Virus record (IMG/VR): IMGVR_UViG_3300017733_000055
Location: 1-22,033 of that record
Reading direction: 5' to 3' (one strand)
Length of the DNA stretch: 22,033 nt
Source of the DNA: a virus
Below are positions 1,362-14,695 of the stretch, in pieces. The notes under the pieces are model-generated. The model ran no database searches. It saw only the letters and a list, made by a program, of their open reading frames with translations, and had not been told where the DNA came from. The position numbers and the translations under genes are program-made. Position 1 is the first letter of the stretch. Every line of letters begins with the position of its first letter.

Positions 1362-1507
1362 TTGTTTTGCTCCTGTGTTTTGTTGTAAACAATGACTCTG
1401 CCATTTTCATGTGTGAAAACTAGTTCATCATCATGTGCCCAACAGAGTTCTTCGTAAAGGGCATTCAATCTCTCCATATCCTGATAGAGAGCATTATGAT
1501 CCGTCAT
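1358..1507 (-). CDS. Small acidic soluble protein between petF and hli, 49 aa
   Basis: 49 residues, beginning [20 protein letters not shown] and ending VYNKTQEQNK. The first half reads as a charged helix (possible short coiled coil), the second as two short strands around a HENGRV turn. No family recognised. The stop overlaps the hli start (ATGA) and the start overlaps the petF stop (TGATG), so it sits in one translationally coupled chain petF-this-hli-44 aa protein. That makes it a real gene despite its size. Its position suggests a role with ferredoxin or Hli, but nothing in the sequence proves this. Confidence 0.75.
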   Translation of the reverse strand: MTDHNALYQDMERLNALYEELCWAHDDELVFTHENGRVIVYNKTQEQNK

Positions 1508-1797
1508 CAATAAAGATTCTCTTCTTGTTCGGTTTCAATCACACAATCGGAAGTGGGATATGCAACACAAGTGAGTACAAATCCAGTTTCAATTTGATCA
1601 TCATCTAGGAAAGATTGATCAGATTGATCAACAGTACCACTGATAATCTTACCAGCACAAGATGAACAAGCACCAGCGCGGCATGAGTAGTTCATATCAA
1701 CACCTGCTTCTTCAGCAGCGTCGAGGATGAACTGATCGTCTTCACATTGAATTGTGTGTTCTCCCTCAGTAGTCTTGAGAGTAATATTGAAAGCCAT
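1507..1797 (-). CDS. petF: Plant-type [2Fe-2S] ferredoxin
   Basis: 96 residues, the usual length of cyanobacterial PetF. Cluster ligands are Cys39, Cys44, Cys47 and Cys77 in the CX4CX2CX29C pattern, with the signature [13 protein letters not shown] (38-50). The C-terminal EEENLY-like tail (QEENLY) is typical of ferredoxins that dock to FNR and other reductases. It would carry electrons from photosystem I to acceptors, including phage or host ribonucleotide and bilin reductases. Phage petF genes are known in cyanomyoviruses. It heads the hli operon and is driven by the promoter at 1826-1854. The SD is weak (CTGGATAA). Confidence 0.95.
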
Positions 1798-1825: not shown

Positions 1826-1861
1826 AGGATACAAAAAATCTAATACTTTGTCAAGTATTAG
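1826..1861 (-). promoter_or_regulatory. Fused terminator and sigma70 promoter before petF
   Basis: The promoter is TTGACA (1854-1849), 17 bp, TATCCT (1831-1826). The same DNA forms a perfect 9-bp stem (1840-1848 with 1853-1861) with a 4-nt loop. On the minus strand the stem is followed by a six-T run, so it also reads as the terminator of the gene at 1883-2110. The -35 box straddles the loop and the T-run lies in the spacer. Confidence 0.8.
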
Positions 1862-1882: not shown

Positions 1883-2110
1883 TTAATCTACAGTCTTTAT
1901 ATCAAAACAGAATTTGCTTTGATCTACTGGTGCATTCTCATAAGATGAAATGTCACCATACTGTTTGTGGTCTTTGTAACCTACCATACGACCCTTCGTA
2001 TTTTGAAGGGCAGACATGAAGACTACGAAAAAGAATACTGCTGGCGCACCGACAAGCAGTGCTCCTCCAATCACATAATACGTCAGAATTTCAAGTAGAG
2101 AAGGTTCCAT
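1883..2110 (-). CDS. Single-pass membrane protein with soluble tail, 75 aa
   Basis: 75 residues. Residues 8-34 form one long hydrophobic span (YYVIGGALLVGAPAVFFFVV). The tail is polar with a KDHKQYGDISSYENAPVDQS stretch (46-65) and a single Cys near the end. I do not recognise a named family. The start ATG overlaps the stop of the 28-residue ORF upstream (TGATG), placing it in one unit with the larger hli gene. It ends before the fused terminator/promoter at 1826-1861. A membrane role near the photosystems is possible from context only. Confidence 0.75.
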   Translation of the reverse strand: MEPSLLEILTYYVIGGALLVGAPAVFFFVVFMSALQNTKGRMVGYKDHKQYGDISSYENAPVDQSKFCFDIKTVD

Positions 2111-2196
2111 CAGTAGGTTTCTGAAAGTTGTTCCACAGTATAACCGAGCAGACAGAAAAAAGCAACTGTCGTGACGGTGAAAATAATCTCAGTCAT
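2110..2196 (-). CDS. Tiny membrane peptide, 28 aa
   Basis: 28 residues (MTEIIFTVTTVAFFCLLGYT then VEQLSETY), almost entirely one hydrophobic helix with a short polar tail. The start overlaps the stop of the upstream hli gene (TGATG) and the stop overlaps the start of the next gene (TGATG). This double coupling is the main reason to accept it as a gene. Size and form resemble small photosystem subunits, but no specific match is recognised. Confidence 0.6.
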   Translation of the reverse strand: MTEIIFTVTTVAFFCLLGYTVEQLSETY

Positions 2197-2414
2197 CAGA
2201 ATCCGAAGACACCAAAGAAAAATACACTACCGGAAGTAGCATAAGAGATAACAGCAGCAACAAATCCAAGCATAGCAGTGCGTCCATTTAATTTCTCTGC
2301 TTTCTCTGCATATGACTCATATCCATAACGCTCAGCATCGGTCTGAGAGACATACATCTGGGGTTCTTTAGCGAACAGATTCTGTTGTCCGCGATCGTTC
2401 GTTGTTACAGTCAT
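2196..2414 (-). CDS. hli: High-light-inducible protein with N-terminal extension
   Basis: 72 residues. An N-terminal polar extension of about 40 residues precedes the Hli helix AEKLNGRTAMLGFVAAVISY (residues 39-58), which has the ExxNGRxAMxGF chlorophyll-binding signature. It ends in FFFGVFGF. It has the same photoprotective role as the short copy at 1254-1361 but with the full-length form seen in many cyanophages, so the window carries two distinct hli types. It is the first gene after a perfect-consensus promoter at 2441-2469, with a roughly 20-nt leader and a weak SD. Confidence 0.95.
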   Translation of the reverse strand: MTVTTNDRGQQNLFAKEPQMYVSQTDAERYGYESYAEKAEKLNGRTAMLGFVAAVISYATSGSVFFFGVFGF

Positions 2415-2440: not shown

Positions 2441-2469
2441 ATTATATAGGAAAGGTAAAGTTTTGTCAA
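2441..2469 (-). promoter_or_regulatory. Perfect-consensus sigma70 promoter of the hli unit
   Basis: TTGACA (2469-2464), a 17-bp spacer and TATAAT (2446-2441), 12 of 12 consensus positions on the minus strand. Transcription would begin near 2434, about 20 nt before the hli ATG. The host RNA polymerase should read it without phage factors. It is the strongest-looking promoter in the window. Confidence 0.9.
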
Positions 2470-8542: not shown

Positions 8543-9464
8543 TATCTTTAAACCACTGATACGCCAACTCAACACCTTCACGGATATCTGTGGATGCTTT
8601 CCACCCAAGATCATTAACCCTAGAGACATCCATGACCTTTCTCATAGTTCCATTTGGTTTAGATGTATCCCATTCAATAGCACCAGTATAACCAACAACA
8701 GAAGCAATGGTTTCAGTCAATTCACGAATAGTGATATCAGTTCCCGTTCCAACATTAACGATGTTTTGTGGATCATCATACACATTCATCAGATGAACAC
8801 AAGCATCAGCAAGGTCATCAACATATAGGAACTCACGCATTGGTGAACCATCACCCCAGCAAGTAACTGAGTCTAGACCACTGACTTTTGCTTCATGGAA
8901 TCTACGAATCAAGGCAGGAAGTACGTGAGACTTTTCTGGATGATAGTTATCACATGGACCATACAAATTGCATGGCATTACACTAATTGCATTGAATCCA
9001 TGTTGCTCATGATATGACTGGCACATTTTGATTCCAGCAATCTTAGCAACAGCATAAGCGTCATTAGTCGTTTCTAGAGGACCAGTCAGCAATTGATCTT
9101 CTGTGATTGGTAGTCTTGGTTCCTTTGGATAGATGCAGGAGGATCCAAGGAATAATAGTTTTTTTACACCAAACTTGTGTGCGTTTCTAATGATGTTGGT
9201 TTGAATCATTAAATTGTCATTAATGACATCTGCTTTATAATCTCGGTTGGCAAGAATACCTCCAACTTTAGCAGCAGCAACAAACACATAATCAAACTCA
9301 TTATGTTTGAAAAAATAATTTGTTTGCATCTGACTGGTAAAGTTTACCTCATCTCTATGTGCACAACAAATGTCAGTATATCCTTCCCTCTCCAATCTTC
9401 GGACGATTGCTGAACCAACCATCCCTTTAGCACCCGCTACTAGAATCTTAGAATTTTTTTCCAT
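8529..9464 (-). CDS. fcl: GDP-L-fucose synthase
   Basis: 311 residues from ATG 9464, which overlaps the gmd stop (TGATG); GAGGG upstream serves as SD. NADP-binding VAGAKGMVGSAI (9-20), active-site LGSSCIYP (106-113; Ser108, Cys110), NDAYAVAKIAG (134-144; Tyr137, Lys141) and His180 (KSHVLP) match the E. coli enzyme's Ser107, Cys109, Tyr136, Lys140 and His179. It performs the 3,5-epimerisation and NADPH reduction of GDP-4-keto-6-deoxymannose to GDP-L-fucose. Length is normal for the family. The gene is also called wcaG. It works directly with gmd and feeds the GT11 transferase. Confidence 0.96.
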   Translation of the reverse strand: MEKNSKILVAGAKGMVGSAIVRRLEREGYTDICCAHRDEVNFTSQMQTNYFFKHNEFDYVFVAAAKVGGILANRDYKADVINDNLMIQTNIIRNAHKFGVKKLLFLGSSCIYPKEPRLPITEDQLLTGPLETTNDAYAVAKIAGIKMCQSYHEQHGFNAISVMPCNLYGPCDNYHPEKSHVLPALIRRFHEAKVSGLDSVTCWGDGSPMREFLYVDDLADACVHLMNVYDDPQNIVNVGTGTDITIRELTETIASVVGYTGAIEWDTSKPNGTMRKVMDVSRVNDLGWKASTDIREGVELAYQWFKDNVVV

Positions 9465-10468
9465 CACTTACCCTCACTTTCACACATTTCTTTAACTAGG
9501 TCTTCAAATGAGACTTCTGGTTCCCAACCCAATTCATGTCTCGCTTTGAATGAATCACCCAATAATGTCTCTACTTCTGTAGGTCGGTAATATTTAGGAT
9601 GCACTGATATGATTGTCTTTTTTGTCTTTCGGTCTAGAGCAATTTCGTCTTGACCTTCACCCATCCATTCAAGATCAAAACCAAAGTATTTCGCAGAAAG
9701 TTCTACAAATTCTCGAACAGAATGATCTATACCTGTGGCAATTACATAGTCCTCAGGTTTATCCTGCTGAAGCATCATCCACATCGCTCTCGCATAATCT
9801 TTAGCGTGTCCCCAGTCTCGTCTTGCATCAAGGTTGCCCAGAAATAGTACGTTCTCTTCCCCAGTTGAAATTCGATGCAGTCCTCGGGTAATCTTACGGG
9901 TAACAAACGTCTCACCCCTTCTTGGACTTTCATGATTGAATAAAATTCCAGAACTTGCATGTAGTCCATACGCTTCCCGATAATTTTTTACAATCCAAAA
10001 ACCATACAGTTTTGCTACGCCATATGGTGAGCGTGGATAAAAAGGCGTATTTTCAGTCTGTGGTGTTTCCTGAACTTTGCCATATAGTTCACTAGTAGAT
10101 GCCTGATAGATACGAACCTTGTCCTCCATACCCAGAAGACGAACTGCTTCTAAAACACGAAGCGTTCCAAGACCATCCACCATTCCGGTGTATTCGGGCA
10201 TCTCAAATGATACCTTAACATGACTCTGAGCACCCAGATTATAAATTTCATCGGGTTCAGTTTTCTTAATAATATTTACAATGTTGGTGGAGTCCGTGAG
10301 GTCACCATAATGCAATGTAATTTTATCGTAAATATGATCAATACGATGGGTATTAATAAGAGAAGAACGTCTCACGATACCATGTACTTGGTATCCCTTC
10401 GTGACTAGTAACTCTGCAAGGTATGAACCGTCTTGCCCAGTAATACCAGTAATTAGAGCAACTTTCAT
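9464..10468 (-). CDS. gmd: GDP-mannose 4,6-dehydratase
   Basis: 334 residues from ATG 10468. [18 protein letters not shown] (4-21), RRSS (33-36), NLGAQSHV (77-84), ASTSELYG (123-130; Thr125, Glu127) and Tyr149/Lys153 in RSPYGVAK reproduce the GMD catalytic triad plus Glu. [15 protein letters not shown] is the GDP-mannose-binding block. It converts GDP-mannose to GDP-4-keto-6-deoxymannose, the first step to GDP-fucose. It is the first gene of the sugar operon. A longer reading to 10549 is rejected because it would pass through a terminator and a promoter. The leader is about 15 nt without a clear SD. Confidence 0.97.
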
Positions 10469-10489: not shown

Positions 10490-10530
10490 ATTATATAGAA
10501 AAAGACGGTTGGGGTCAAGCCAACCGTCTT
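10490..10530 (-). promoter_or_regulatory. Fused terminator and sigma70 promoter of the sugar operon
   Basis: TTGACC (10518-10513), a 17-bp spacer and TATAAT (10495-10490) form a near-consensus promoter, with the start near 10483. The same DNA forms an 11-bp perfect stem (10502-10512 with 10520-10530) whose 7-nt loop holds five of the six -35 bases, followed by a T-run (minus strand) in the spacer. It thus also ends the transcript of the gene at 10677-10895. This is the second unit of this design, after 1826-1861. Confidence 0.85.
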
Positions 10531-10597
10531 TATAAGGTCTCACATGCACGCCACCTATTCTTTAGAGAAATAGGAAACTCATAATAGGGTCATATTG

Positions 10598-10671
10598 ACT
10601 CCACCAGTGCTGTTAAAGTCCATCCGTGACTTATGGGAGAAAACTCCGACCAGGGTTGTTAAAGACTCTCC
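10598..10671 (-). repeat. Imperfect direct repeat pair in the 3' untranslated region
   Basis: Two copies, 10598-10625 and 10643-10671, share about 23 of 29 positions on the minus strand around a CTTTAACA core and a CTGGT-GGAGT tail. They lie between the stop at 10677 and the terminator at 10502-10530, in DNA with no ORF. A further near-palindrome sits at about 10554-10574. Purpose unknown. Confidence 0.55.
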
Positions 10672-10967: not shown

Positions 10968-11040
10968 TGGGGGTCGCGAGGATCGAACTCGCCTTATCCG
11001 AATTATGAGTTCGGTGCATTCACCAGATTGCTAGACCCCC
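10968..11040 (-). tRNA. tRNA with CAT anticodon (Met or lysidine-type Ile)
   Basis: 73 nt with acceptor stem GGGGGTC/GACCCCC, D-arm GCA/TGC, anticodon stem CCGAA/TTCGG with loop CTCATAA, variable ATAAG, T-arm GCGAG/CTCGC and A73. G1 pairs with C72, so it is not an initiator. CAT may read AUG, or AUA if the C is modified to lysidine. No CCA is encoded. It lies 2 nt beyond tRNA-Ile. Confidence 0.93.
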
Positions 11041-11042
11041 GG

Positions 11043-11114
11043 TAGGACCGCTGAGAGTTGAACCCAGTTCACACCGTTATAAGCAGTGGGCCTTAACCGA
11101 TAGGCGACGGTCCC
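11043..11114 (-). tRNA. tRNA-Ile (anticodon TAT)
   Basis: 72 nt with acceptor GGGACCG/CGGTCCT (G-U at the end), D-stem GCCT/AGGC, anticodon stem CACTG/CGGTG with loop CTTATAA (U33, anticodon UAU, A37), T-arm CTGGG/CTCAG and A73. It reads AUA codons directly. UAU anticodons are uncommon in bacteria, which normally use lysidine-modified CAU. No CCA encoded. Confidence 0.9.
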
Positions 11115-11889: not shown

Positions 11890-11995
11890 CATAATCATCG
11901 CTTTCGTAGTAAAAATTTTCACCCCTATAAAGTCCAAAGGTTATAGTAAGAAGCACAAATGGAATTGATATCCACAGTAAGACAGTACTTAACAT
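11867..11995 (-). CDS. Small single-pass membrane protein with acidic tail, 42 aa
   Basis: 42 residues. MLSTVLLWISIPFVLLTITF is one hydrophobic helix, followed by GLYRGENFYYESDDYDGNGT, an acidic tail. This is the same design as the 44-residue protein at 1119-1253 (N-terminal span, acidic tail). The start overlaps the stop of the truncated gnd gene (AAATGTTAA), suggesting coupled translation. No family recognised; too short for the usual ORF cut-offs. Confidence 0.65.
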   Translation of the reverse strand: MLSTVLLWISIPFVLLTITFGLYRGENFYYESDDYDGNGTAH

Positions 11996-12459
11996 TTTAC
12001 ATTACCCGGTGATAAGGATTGAAAAATTTTAGAACAAGCATCAATAGCAACATGTGCTCCATATACCCCAGAGAAAATATATAAGATACCTAACTTAGAA
12101 CAGCACAGTTCCAGTTCCTGACATTTTCTTATATCTGTGGTACTGTGATCAATGATGATATCACCATCCTCAAGTAAAGGTAGCAATTCATCAAGTGTGT
12201 CTTCTGCCTTTTGCTCTGGAAGTGTAATCTGAAAAATGCCAGGAATTTTACCAGCACTAATAAATTTCTTATTATCAGTTTTAACTGCTCTAACAAGATA
12301 CTCTAGTGAAGTTACACATCCACTAAGGTGTCCTGCTTCATATTGTCCACAGGCATTCTCATAGTTACTACTATAACCCCAAACTTCAATTCCATTTTCG
12401 ATCATATGGCGGGACATACCCTCACCAGTACGACCTAACCCAATCATCCCAACTTTCAT
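11989..12459 (-). CDS. 6-phosphogluconate dehydrogenase, NAD(P)-binding domain only
   Basis: 156 residues. MKVGMIGLGRTGEGMSRHM is the Gly-rich Rossmann start of Gnd-type dehydrogenases (GLGRTG). Then come GYSSNYE, ITLPEQKAEDTLDELLPLLEDGDIIIDHSTT (the IDHST-type strand) and a final GVYGAH where active enzymes have GVSGG. Full cyanophage Gnd has about 300 or more residues with a helical C-terminal domain that completes the catalytic site; here the frame ends at NVKC. The catalytic Lys-containing part is absent, so oxidation of 6-phosphogluconate is unlikely. It is either a decaying host-derived gene or a domain kept for another use. The frame is open without internal stops, so it is not yet a clear pseudogene. 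Confidence 0.8.
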   Translation of the reverse strand: MKVGMIGLGRTGEGMSRHMIENGIEVWGYSSNYENACGQYEAGHLSGCVTSLEYLVRAVKTDNKKFISAGKIPGIFQITLPEQKAEDTLDELLPLLEDGDIIIDHSTTDIRKCQELELCCSKLGILYIFSGVYGAHVAIDACSKIFQSLSPGNVKC

Positions 12460-13299: not shown

Positions 13300-13314
13300 A
13301 TTTATCACCTAGAA

Positions 13315-13387
13315 CTGCTCCACTTGGACTCGAACCAAGAACCTCAAAGTTAACAGCTTCGCGCACTACCAATTGTGCTATAGAGCA
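13315..13387 (-). tRNA. tRNA-Asn (anticodon GTT)
   Basis: 73 nt with acceptor TGCTCTA/TGGAGCA, D-arm GCAC/GTGC, anticodon stem CGAAG/CTTTG with loop CTGTTAA, T-arm CTTGG/CCAAG and G73. It is the fourth and last tRNA of the cluster from the promoter at 13648-13676. No CCA encoded. Confidence 0.93.
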
Positions 13388-13405
13388 ATATTTCCCTTAC
13401 GGGAA

Positions 13406-13478
13406 TGGAGAATAGGAGACTCGAACTCCTGACATCCTGCTTGCAAAGCAGGCGCTCTACCAACTGAGCTAATTCCCC
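13406..13478 (-). tRNA. tRNA-Ala (anticodon TGC)
   Basis: 73 nt with acceptor GGGGAAT/ATTCTCC (one G-U), D-arm GCTC/GAGC, anticodon stem CCTGC/GCAGG with loop TTTGCAA, T-arm AGGAG/CTCCT and A73. Third tRNA of the cluster. Confidence 0.95.
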
Positions 13479-13481
13479 CCA

Positions 13482-13552
13482 AGCGGAATACCAGAATCGA
13501 ACTGGTGACGAAAGGTTGGAAACCTTTAGTTTTGCCTCTAAACTAATTCCGC
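13482..13552 (-). tRNA. tRNA-Gly (anticodon TCC)
   Basis: 71 nt with acceptor GCGGAAT/ATTCCGC, a short D-arm GTTT/AAAC, anticodon stem AAAGG/CCTTT with loop TTTCCAA, T-arm ACCAG/CTGGT and T73. Second tRNA of the cluster, 3 nt past tRNA-Arg. Confidence 0.94.
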
Positions 13553-13555
13553 AAG

Positions 13556-13628
13556 CGACTCAGGTTGGGGTCGAACCAACGACCGACTGCTTAGAAGGCA
13601 GTTGCTCTGTCCACTGAGCTACTGAGTC
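13556..13628 (-). tRNA. tRNA-Arg (anticodon TCT)
   Basis: 73 nt with acceptor GACTCAG/CTGAGTC, D-arm GCTC/GAGC, anticodon stem ACTGC/GCAGT with loop CTTCTAA, T-arm GTTGG/CCAAC and G73. It reads AGA. First tRNA after the promoter, with the transcription start near 13641. Confidence 0.95.
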
Positions 13629-13991: not shown

Positions 13992-14267
13992 TTAGCGATC
14001 AATACAATCAAAGTGTTTCGCCCTATACCAATCATACCATAACCCAACTTTACGTTTTGCTTCAAGGTGCTGTGGATCTCTTGCCCAGAGTTCTACATCT
14101 TCCTTAGTTTTCCATTTACTAATGGTAATCTCAACACCATCAACGACCTCGGTGTCAATACCGATGAATCCATCCATGGTCTTGGCACTTAAGTAAAGTG
14201 AATCATTGTACTCTTCATACTCAGGTGTTGAGTTCTTAATCTTTCCAATAAAAAGAACTTCAATCAT
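13992..14267 (-). CDS. ABM-fold (antibiotic-biosynthesis-monooxygenase-like) protein
   Basis: 91 residues, the normal single-domain length. MIEVLFIGKI, MDGFIGIDTEVVDGVEITISKW (strand-turn-strand), then KEDVELWARDPQHLEAKRKVG (helix with the W..-PxHxxA-xxxG pattern) and LWYDWYRAKHF match the dimeric alpha/beta-barrel ABM superfamily, which includes heme-degrading HmoA-like enzymes and many of unknown substrate. No heme ligand can be assigned safely. ATG 14267 overlaps the upstream stop as ATGA. Role in phage infection unknown; possibly small-molecule or heme oxidation. Confidence 0.78.
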   Translation of the reverse strand: MIEVLFIGKIKNSTPEYEEYNDSLYLSAKTMDGFIGIDTEVVDGVEITISKWKTKEDVELWARDPQHLEAKRKVGLWYDWYRAKHFDCIDR

Positions 14268-14695
14268 TTAAAATTGCCATAATCTTTCCTCATGTATCTA
14301 CCGAGGATATTGCTATTATAGTAAGCAGGACCTCCTGTGTCAAGAGATTCTTGCAAGACATTATTTAAGAATAACTGTTTAGTTTCCTCAAAATTACAAG
14401 ATCCTTTAGTGGAATGAAGACTTAATATCTCTCTACTGAAAGTCTCTTTTCCAAATACTTTAAGATCATCCTTTAGTTCAGGACAAGATCCATAATATTT
14501 TTTCCAGTCAGATTCTTGTTTTACTTTTCTCTTTTTTCCTGGTGGTGTTCTGAAAGACCAAAAATACTTTCTCCCAATGTATTGTCGTTGGTTTGAGAAA
14601 TTGGTAATGAGATAAACAAAACCAAAGTAGTCATGAACATCGTCACTAGTAAAAGGTCTCTCATTATATATCCAGGGATTATCATAATCGCACAA
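14264..14695 (-). CDS. GIY-YIG-like endonuclease-type protein with TTG start
   Basis: 143 residues. FGFVYLITN (24-32) and QYIGRKYFW (38-46) give the paired strands of the GIY-YIG motif with the conserved Arg42. WKKYYGSCPELK and a Glu pair (103-104, NFEETKQL) fit later family positions. Such proteins in T4-like phages cut DNA as free-standing homing endonucleases, but a domesticated role is possible. No ATG exists in frame before residue 135; an in-frame stop lies at 14717-14719, so the start is probably TTG 14695. The C-terminus lacks an obvious DNA-binding module. Confidence 0.7.
   Translation of the reverse strand: MCDYDNPWIYNERPFTSDDVHDYFGFVYLITNFSNQRQYIGRKYFWSFRTPPGKKRKVKQESDWKKYYGSCPELKDDLKVFGKETFSREILSLHSTKGSCNFEETKQLFLNNVLQESLDTGGPAYYNSNILGRYMRKDYGNFK

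Follow-up and report, generated by a model that had tools for sequence, protein, structure and literature searches.

A candidate fused terminator-promoter element at gene boundaries of T4-like cyanophages

The window analyzed here, that is, the whole stretch of 22,033 nucleotides, is a 22-kb viral contig from a T4-like cyanophage, for which the best-matching isolate record is S-SKS1. The genes and signals of interest all lie on its minus strand (Table 1). Between petF and the gene upstream of it is an element (1861-1826, minus strand) that reads CTAATACTT-GACA-AAGTATTAG-ATTTTTTG-TATCCT: a stem-loop starting 21 nt past the TAA of the phrog_961 gene, with a -35 box lying across stem and loop, followed by a T-run that forms part of the 17-bp spacer and then by a -10 box. 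This is the anatomy given in a preliminary description of the locus, and its coordinates are confirmed. The same description reported a recurrence of the design before gmd; this too is borne out (10531-10490, minus strand; AAAGACGGTTGG-CTTGACC-CCAACCGTCTTT-TTCTA-TATAAT), and the gmd element turns out to be a far better copy, with a longer and more stable stem and a perfect -10 box. What that description did not mention is the gmd context, namely a wcaG RNA directly upstream.

Table 1. Positions of the genes, RNA and element parts within the window.
Feature	Position	Strand	Remarks
petF, 2Fe-2S ferredoxin	1507..1797	-	start 1797; Fer2, phrog_844
petF -10 box TATCCT	1826..1831	-	4/6; 17-bp spacer from -35
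petF T-run	1833..1838	-	6 T; after stem and A 1839, before G 1832; within 17-bp spacer
petF stem-loop	1840..1861	-	9-bp stem, loop GACA, -8.9 kcal/mol
petF stem arms	1861-1853 and 1848-1840	-	CTAATACTT and AAGTATTAG; loop GACA 1852-1849 between
petF -35 box TTGACA	1849..1854	-	6/6; TT = last two stem bases, GACA = loop
Upstream gene, phrog_961	1883..2110	-	function unknown; PHROG match
hli, high light inducible protein	2196..2414	-	
hli promoter TTGACA-17-TATAAT	2441..2469	-	hairpin-less form
gmd, GDP-mannose 4,6-dehydratase	9464..10468	-	ATG 10468
gmd -10 box TATAAT	10490..10495	-	6/6; 17 bp from -35
gmd hairpin	10501..10531	-	12-bp stem, 7-nt loop CTTGACC, -17.0 kcal/mol
gmd -35 box TTGACC	10513..10518	-	5/6; in loop
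wcaG RNA (RF01761)	10540..10634	-	diverged full-length match; 8 nt before gmd hairpin

Elsewhere in the window, the minus strand also carries a perfect sigma70 consensus, TTGACA-17-TATAAT, at 14343-14315, inside an ORF (14264-14695) that by eye resembles a GIY-YIG-type nuclease; six tRNA genes (Met, Ile and an Asn-Ala-Gly-Arg cluster) at 10968-11114 and 13314-13628; and a 156-aa ORF (11989-12459) whose match to 6-phosphogluconate dehydrogenase is confined to the NAD-binding part and for which an equally short PHROG exists.

By sequence, no example of the fused design is weaker than that of petF, with its AT-rich stem, 4/6 -10 box and a T-run that is missing in relatives. When a sigma70-type promoter is taken to be a -35 and a -10 box separated by 16-18 bp before a start codon, petF has one (6/6 and 4/6 matches, 17-bp spacer), and the element likely acts as a promoter. 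As an intrinsic terminator it offers, in the window, a stem of -8.9 kcal/mol followed by six T; the stem contains only two G-C pairs, too few for it to be picked up by the terminator scan of the window. Moreover, in a dozen related petF loci the dyad is retained and the T-run is missing: where petF stands behind the same phrog_961 gene, these relatives often have GATACTTGACAnAGTATC, with the -10 box at 17 bp and with AAACTTTC replacing the T-run, and other petF relatives have the promoter without the dyad. Because the relatives keep the dyad but not the T-run, the preliminary view that this stem-loop ends the upstream gene is doubtful; a terminator role here would be weak and uncertain, with the odds leaning slightly against it. 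A search of viral contigs for the exact petF core yielded no exact orthologue, its four matches all falling within unrelated coding sequence (VILDKVL), as expected by chance. Two other arrangements were seen along the way. Loci L128, L119 and L116 have fused hairpins with TATCCT or TATGCT at 17 bp and then ATATAAT, which resemble the TATCCT of petF and provide two candidate -10 boxes; before petF in loci L042, L043, L050, L052 and L072 the order is reversed, with a TATAAT promoter and, directly after it in the leader, a strong hairpin resembling a terminator.

How often such an arrangement arises by chance was gauged using a strict composite, defined as a stem of at least 6 bp, TTGAC over the loop, a T-run, and a -10 box at 16-18 bp (with at least 4/6 matches in the window and 5/6 elsewhere). 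The window contains two composites, as compared with a mean of 0.027 in 300 dinucleotide shuffles, none of which reached two. The search of cyanophage genomes that the preliminary description had proposed, for hairpins with TTGAC in the loop and a -10 box downstream, was carried out on six cyanomyovirus genomes (S-SKS1, Syn9, S-PM2, P-SSM2, S-SM2 and Syn1; 1.2 Mb) and returned nine strict composites where about 0.37 are expected, one of them, in Syn9, being doubtful due to a poor T-rich stretch. No strict composites were found in RB49, Phi1, T4, KVP40 or P-SSP7. Nor did the genome of the host Synechococcus WH7803 contain the exact form TTGAC-N18-TATAAT, the only form sought there, and hence it gives no sign of a host origin.

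The association is seen most clearly from the terminators. The six genomes contain 189 terminator-like hairpins. In 34 of these a -10 box follows the stem at 8-10 nt (4.2 expected), a distance at which the hairpin loop falls at the -35 position; T-runs without a hairpin have a -10 box at a rate of 0.6-0.9% per offset. Hairpins with a -10 box just past the stem more often have a -35-like loop (13/39) than do the others (12/150; Fisher p 1.7e-4). Measured from the stem, the stop codon of the preceding gene lies at a median of 20 nt upstream, and the following ATG in most cases 34-48 nt downstream. A metaprofile anchored on promoter-like matches gives a modest peak at -35, far less clear than the signal obtained by anchoring on terminators. 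Since many of the terminator hairpins with a -10 box combine an extended -10 with a non-TTGAC loop, and since most gmd relatives have TTGCAT, a poor -35 box, in the loop, the -35 box may often be dispensable.

Whether both the pairing and the promoter letters are maintained can be judged from two families, before hli and before gmd. For hli (35 distinct orthologous elements aligned), TTGAC and TATAnT are invariant and the T-run is near-invariant, while 97.5% of stem cells are paired and double changes occur at seven of the nine pairs. Stem covariation is 0.582, versus 0.173 in shuffles (0/500 as high) and at most 0.169 in slid controls; because kinship alone can lift covariation above that of shuffles, more weight falls on the slid controls and on the double changes. 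For gmd, the 20 distinct elements carry TTGCAT in the loop, at a distance of 17 bp from TATAAT; every stem cell is paired (100%) and stem covariation is 0.542 versus 0.191 in shuffles (0/500); here as well the arms covary strongly while the loop box, the T-run and the -10 box are nearly fixed. This combination in both families shows that pairing and promoter letters are each under selection. Moreover, as expected of intrinsic terminators, the hli and gmd copies have stable stems that covary and a U-run behind them. Taken together, the comparisons indicate that the fused terminator-promoter design is real, widespread in T4-like cyanophages and evolutionarily maintained. Thus the fused design proposed in the preliminary description stands for the phage group, where the design exceeds chance and its hli and gmd copies bear compensatory changes, though the petF copy on which it was based is its poorest representative.

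The hli family also includes a hairpin-less promoter with a different spacer, found in about 30 of 81 distinct elements, including that of the window (one of the 30, in Syn1, is a misread hairpin form). The existence of this form shows that the promoter does not depend on fusion. In elements that have the hairpin, most upstream stop codons precede the -35 box by 11-40 nt, and the upstream genes are of many different types; in 22 of 30 elements that lack it, the stop codon is no more than about 6 nt from the -35 box, too close for a hairpin to fit. This pattern fits a movable gene boundary.

At gmd, the window's wcaG match is full length but scores 32 bits (E 0.014), below the Rfam gathering score of 42; relatives have clear matches at the same place (70-101 bits). 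A wcaG match is present at 13 gmd loci, and at 11 of these the fused hairpin comes within about 25 nt after the RNA; the same order, wcaG followed by a fused hairpin, is seen in S-SKS1 and S-SM2. In loci L088 and L090, which have gmd at a distance of 454 and 927 nt, the place after wcaG is taken by a plain terminator without a -35 or -10 box. The gmd hairpin may thus be the terminator of wcaG with a promoter built in. A general rule placing wcaG before hli was considered and rejected: wcaG occurs at 2 of 20 hli loci and is directly upstream at neither.

Two other readings bear chiefly on petF. Its composite could be a promoter that overlaps a short palindrome by chance, as the two G-C pairs, the 4/6 -10 box and the lack of an orthologue for the exact element would allow; this is unlikely given the excess of composites over shuffles in the 22 kb, and given that relatives carry the dyad in the same position, the window copy, which does have a T-run, differing from them in both members of one base pair (G-C to A-T). 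Alternatively, the dyad around the -35 box could be an operator for a DNA-binding regulator rather than an RNA hairpin. The petF relatives, which retain GATACTTGACAnAGTATC almost unchanged and without a T-run, are what such an operator would predict, but at hli and gmd the arm sequences vary freely while pairing is retained, so that a fixed operator is ruled out for these two families, and as an account of the element it is quite unlikely.

Two further readings concern how the element might be used. The gmd hairpin could be the expression platform of wcaG, with wcaG sensing deciding whether transcription reads through from upstream and the embedded promoter adding wcaG-independent gmd transcription. 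The close succession of RNA and fused hairpin at 11 of 13 loci, the plain terminators that take its place in L088 and L090, the order conserved in S-SKS1 and S-SM2, and the published proposal that wcaG, which is linked to exopolysaccharide and high-light genes, is a candidate riboswitch (PMC2864571) all speak for this possibility; elsewhere, however, wcaG precedes tRNAs or an unfused hli promoter, and the idea is not applicable to petF, so that it is held tentatively, at somewhat less than even odds. The preliminary description also stated that termination and initiation at the element must interfere or be coordinated, which is true only physically, in that the DNA has no room for two polymerases at the same time. 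A stronger form of coupling would have a polymerase that terminates in the T-run stay on the DNA, over the promoter, rebind sigma and restart at the fused -10 box, so that upstream expression would feed the next gene. The placement of the T-run inside the promoter spacer provides the geometry for this, and in E. coli a polymerase that has undergone intrinsic termination usually remains DNA-bound and is able to start again from promoters close by (PMC6978380; PMC6978322); yet simple packing explains the sequence, restarts were mostly antisense in one study (PMC6978322), and such coupling is very unlikely. A more novel reading, likewise very unlikely, is a transcription relay in which the polymerase is handed directly from the end of the upstream RNA to the underlying promoter, coupling neighbor genes that have separate RNAs, with wcaG as the gate at gmd.

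The explanation favored here, with a probability of roughly 0.8, is that of a bifunctional gene-boundary element, a terminator and a promoter in one. Within the RNA of the upstream gene, the element would be an intrinsic terminator (paired arms followed by a U-run); as double-stranded DNA read by the host sigma70-type polymerase, it would be the promoter of the next gene. On this best reading, two functions are packed together but read in different molecules, the hairpin and U-run in RNA and the -35 and -10 boxes in DNA. Both would fit into about 36 bp because what is fixed in one occupies what is free to vary in the other: the -35 box would sit in the loop of the terminator, and the 17-bp spacer would consist of the right arm and T-run. 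The element would thereby insulate a gene from its upstream neighbor and supply its own start, which would allow gene modules to sit behind different neighbors. From sequence patterns of this kind we infer that RNA actually ends and starts at the element.

If so, T4-like cyanophages widely possess a compact, evolutionarily maintained way, about 36 bp long, to close one transcript and open the next, which annotation that handles terminators and promoters separately has apparently overlooked. The naturally occurring hli promoters with and without a hairpin would provide a direct test bed for post-termination restart of polymerase at an adjacent promoter. The wcaG RNA motif (RF01761), which in cyanophages lies directly 5' of the gmd element, was published as a candidate regulator of the genes that follow it, whereas here a promoter-bearing terminator intervenes before the gene; because a putative terminator with its own promoter thus separates wcaG from gmd, the notion of wcaG as a simple 5'-UTR riboswitch is called into question. 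Were the relay true, neighboring phage genes on separate RNAs would be coupled, with the wcaG RNA gating gmd.

The closest known counterpart is the promoter-early stem-loop (PeSL) of T4-type phages, reportedly described by Arbiol in 2010 and by Comeau in 2014, which is said to combine, in a small cassette, a stem-loop terminator with an early promoter of sigma70 type and to occur at gene boundaries, behind shuffled gene modules. It is also reported to mediate recombination (minicircles, indels). In sequence anatomy the cyanophage element likewise joins a stem-loop terminator and a sigma70-type promoter in one cassette, and the hairpin form of the hli element likewise lies at the boundaries of shuffled modules, behind many types of upstream gene. 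A published cyanophage study describes PeSLs as sparse in S-PM2 (PMC4503421).

Outside the T4-type phages, the intergenic repeats of HGTV-1 are described as containing an inverted repeat and have been likened to PeSLs (PMC3950731; PMC8707807). By published descriptions, the intergenic repeats of haloviruses HF2 and HGTV-1 resemble the cyanophage element in carrying promoters, but these are archaeal viruses with TATA-like promoter motifs. Within the T4-type phages the difference is one of layout. In the PeSLs of RB49 and Phi1 the order is tandem, the -35 box starting at least 10 nt after the stem in 25/25 cases; in the cyanophages, by contrast, the -35 box is inside the hairpin in 20/28 cases and the T-run serves as spacer, so that the order is not tandem. 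KVP40 (AY283928) has a third layout, with TTGAC within the left stem arm, in seven copies of aaagggTTGACnnnnGTCARcccttt (for example, at 85859, 100194 and 121377), most of which are followed by a TATTAT-like box. With the PeSL design taken from citing papers, the fused cyanophage element is accordingly filed, on sequence layout, as a compact variant of the PeSL.
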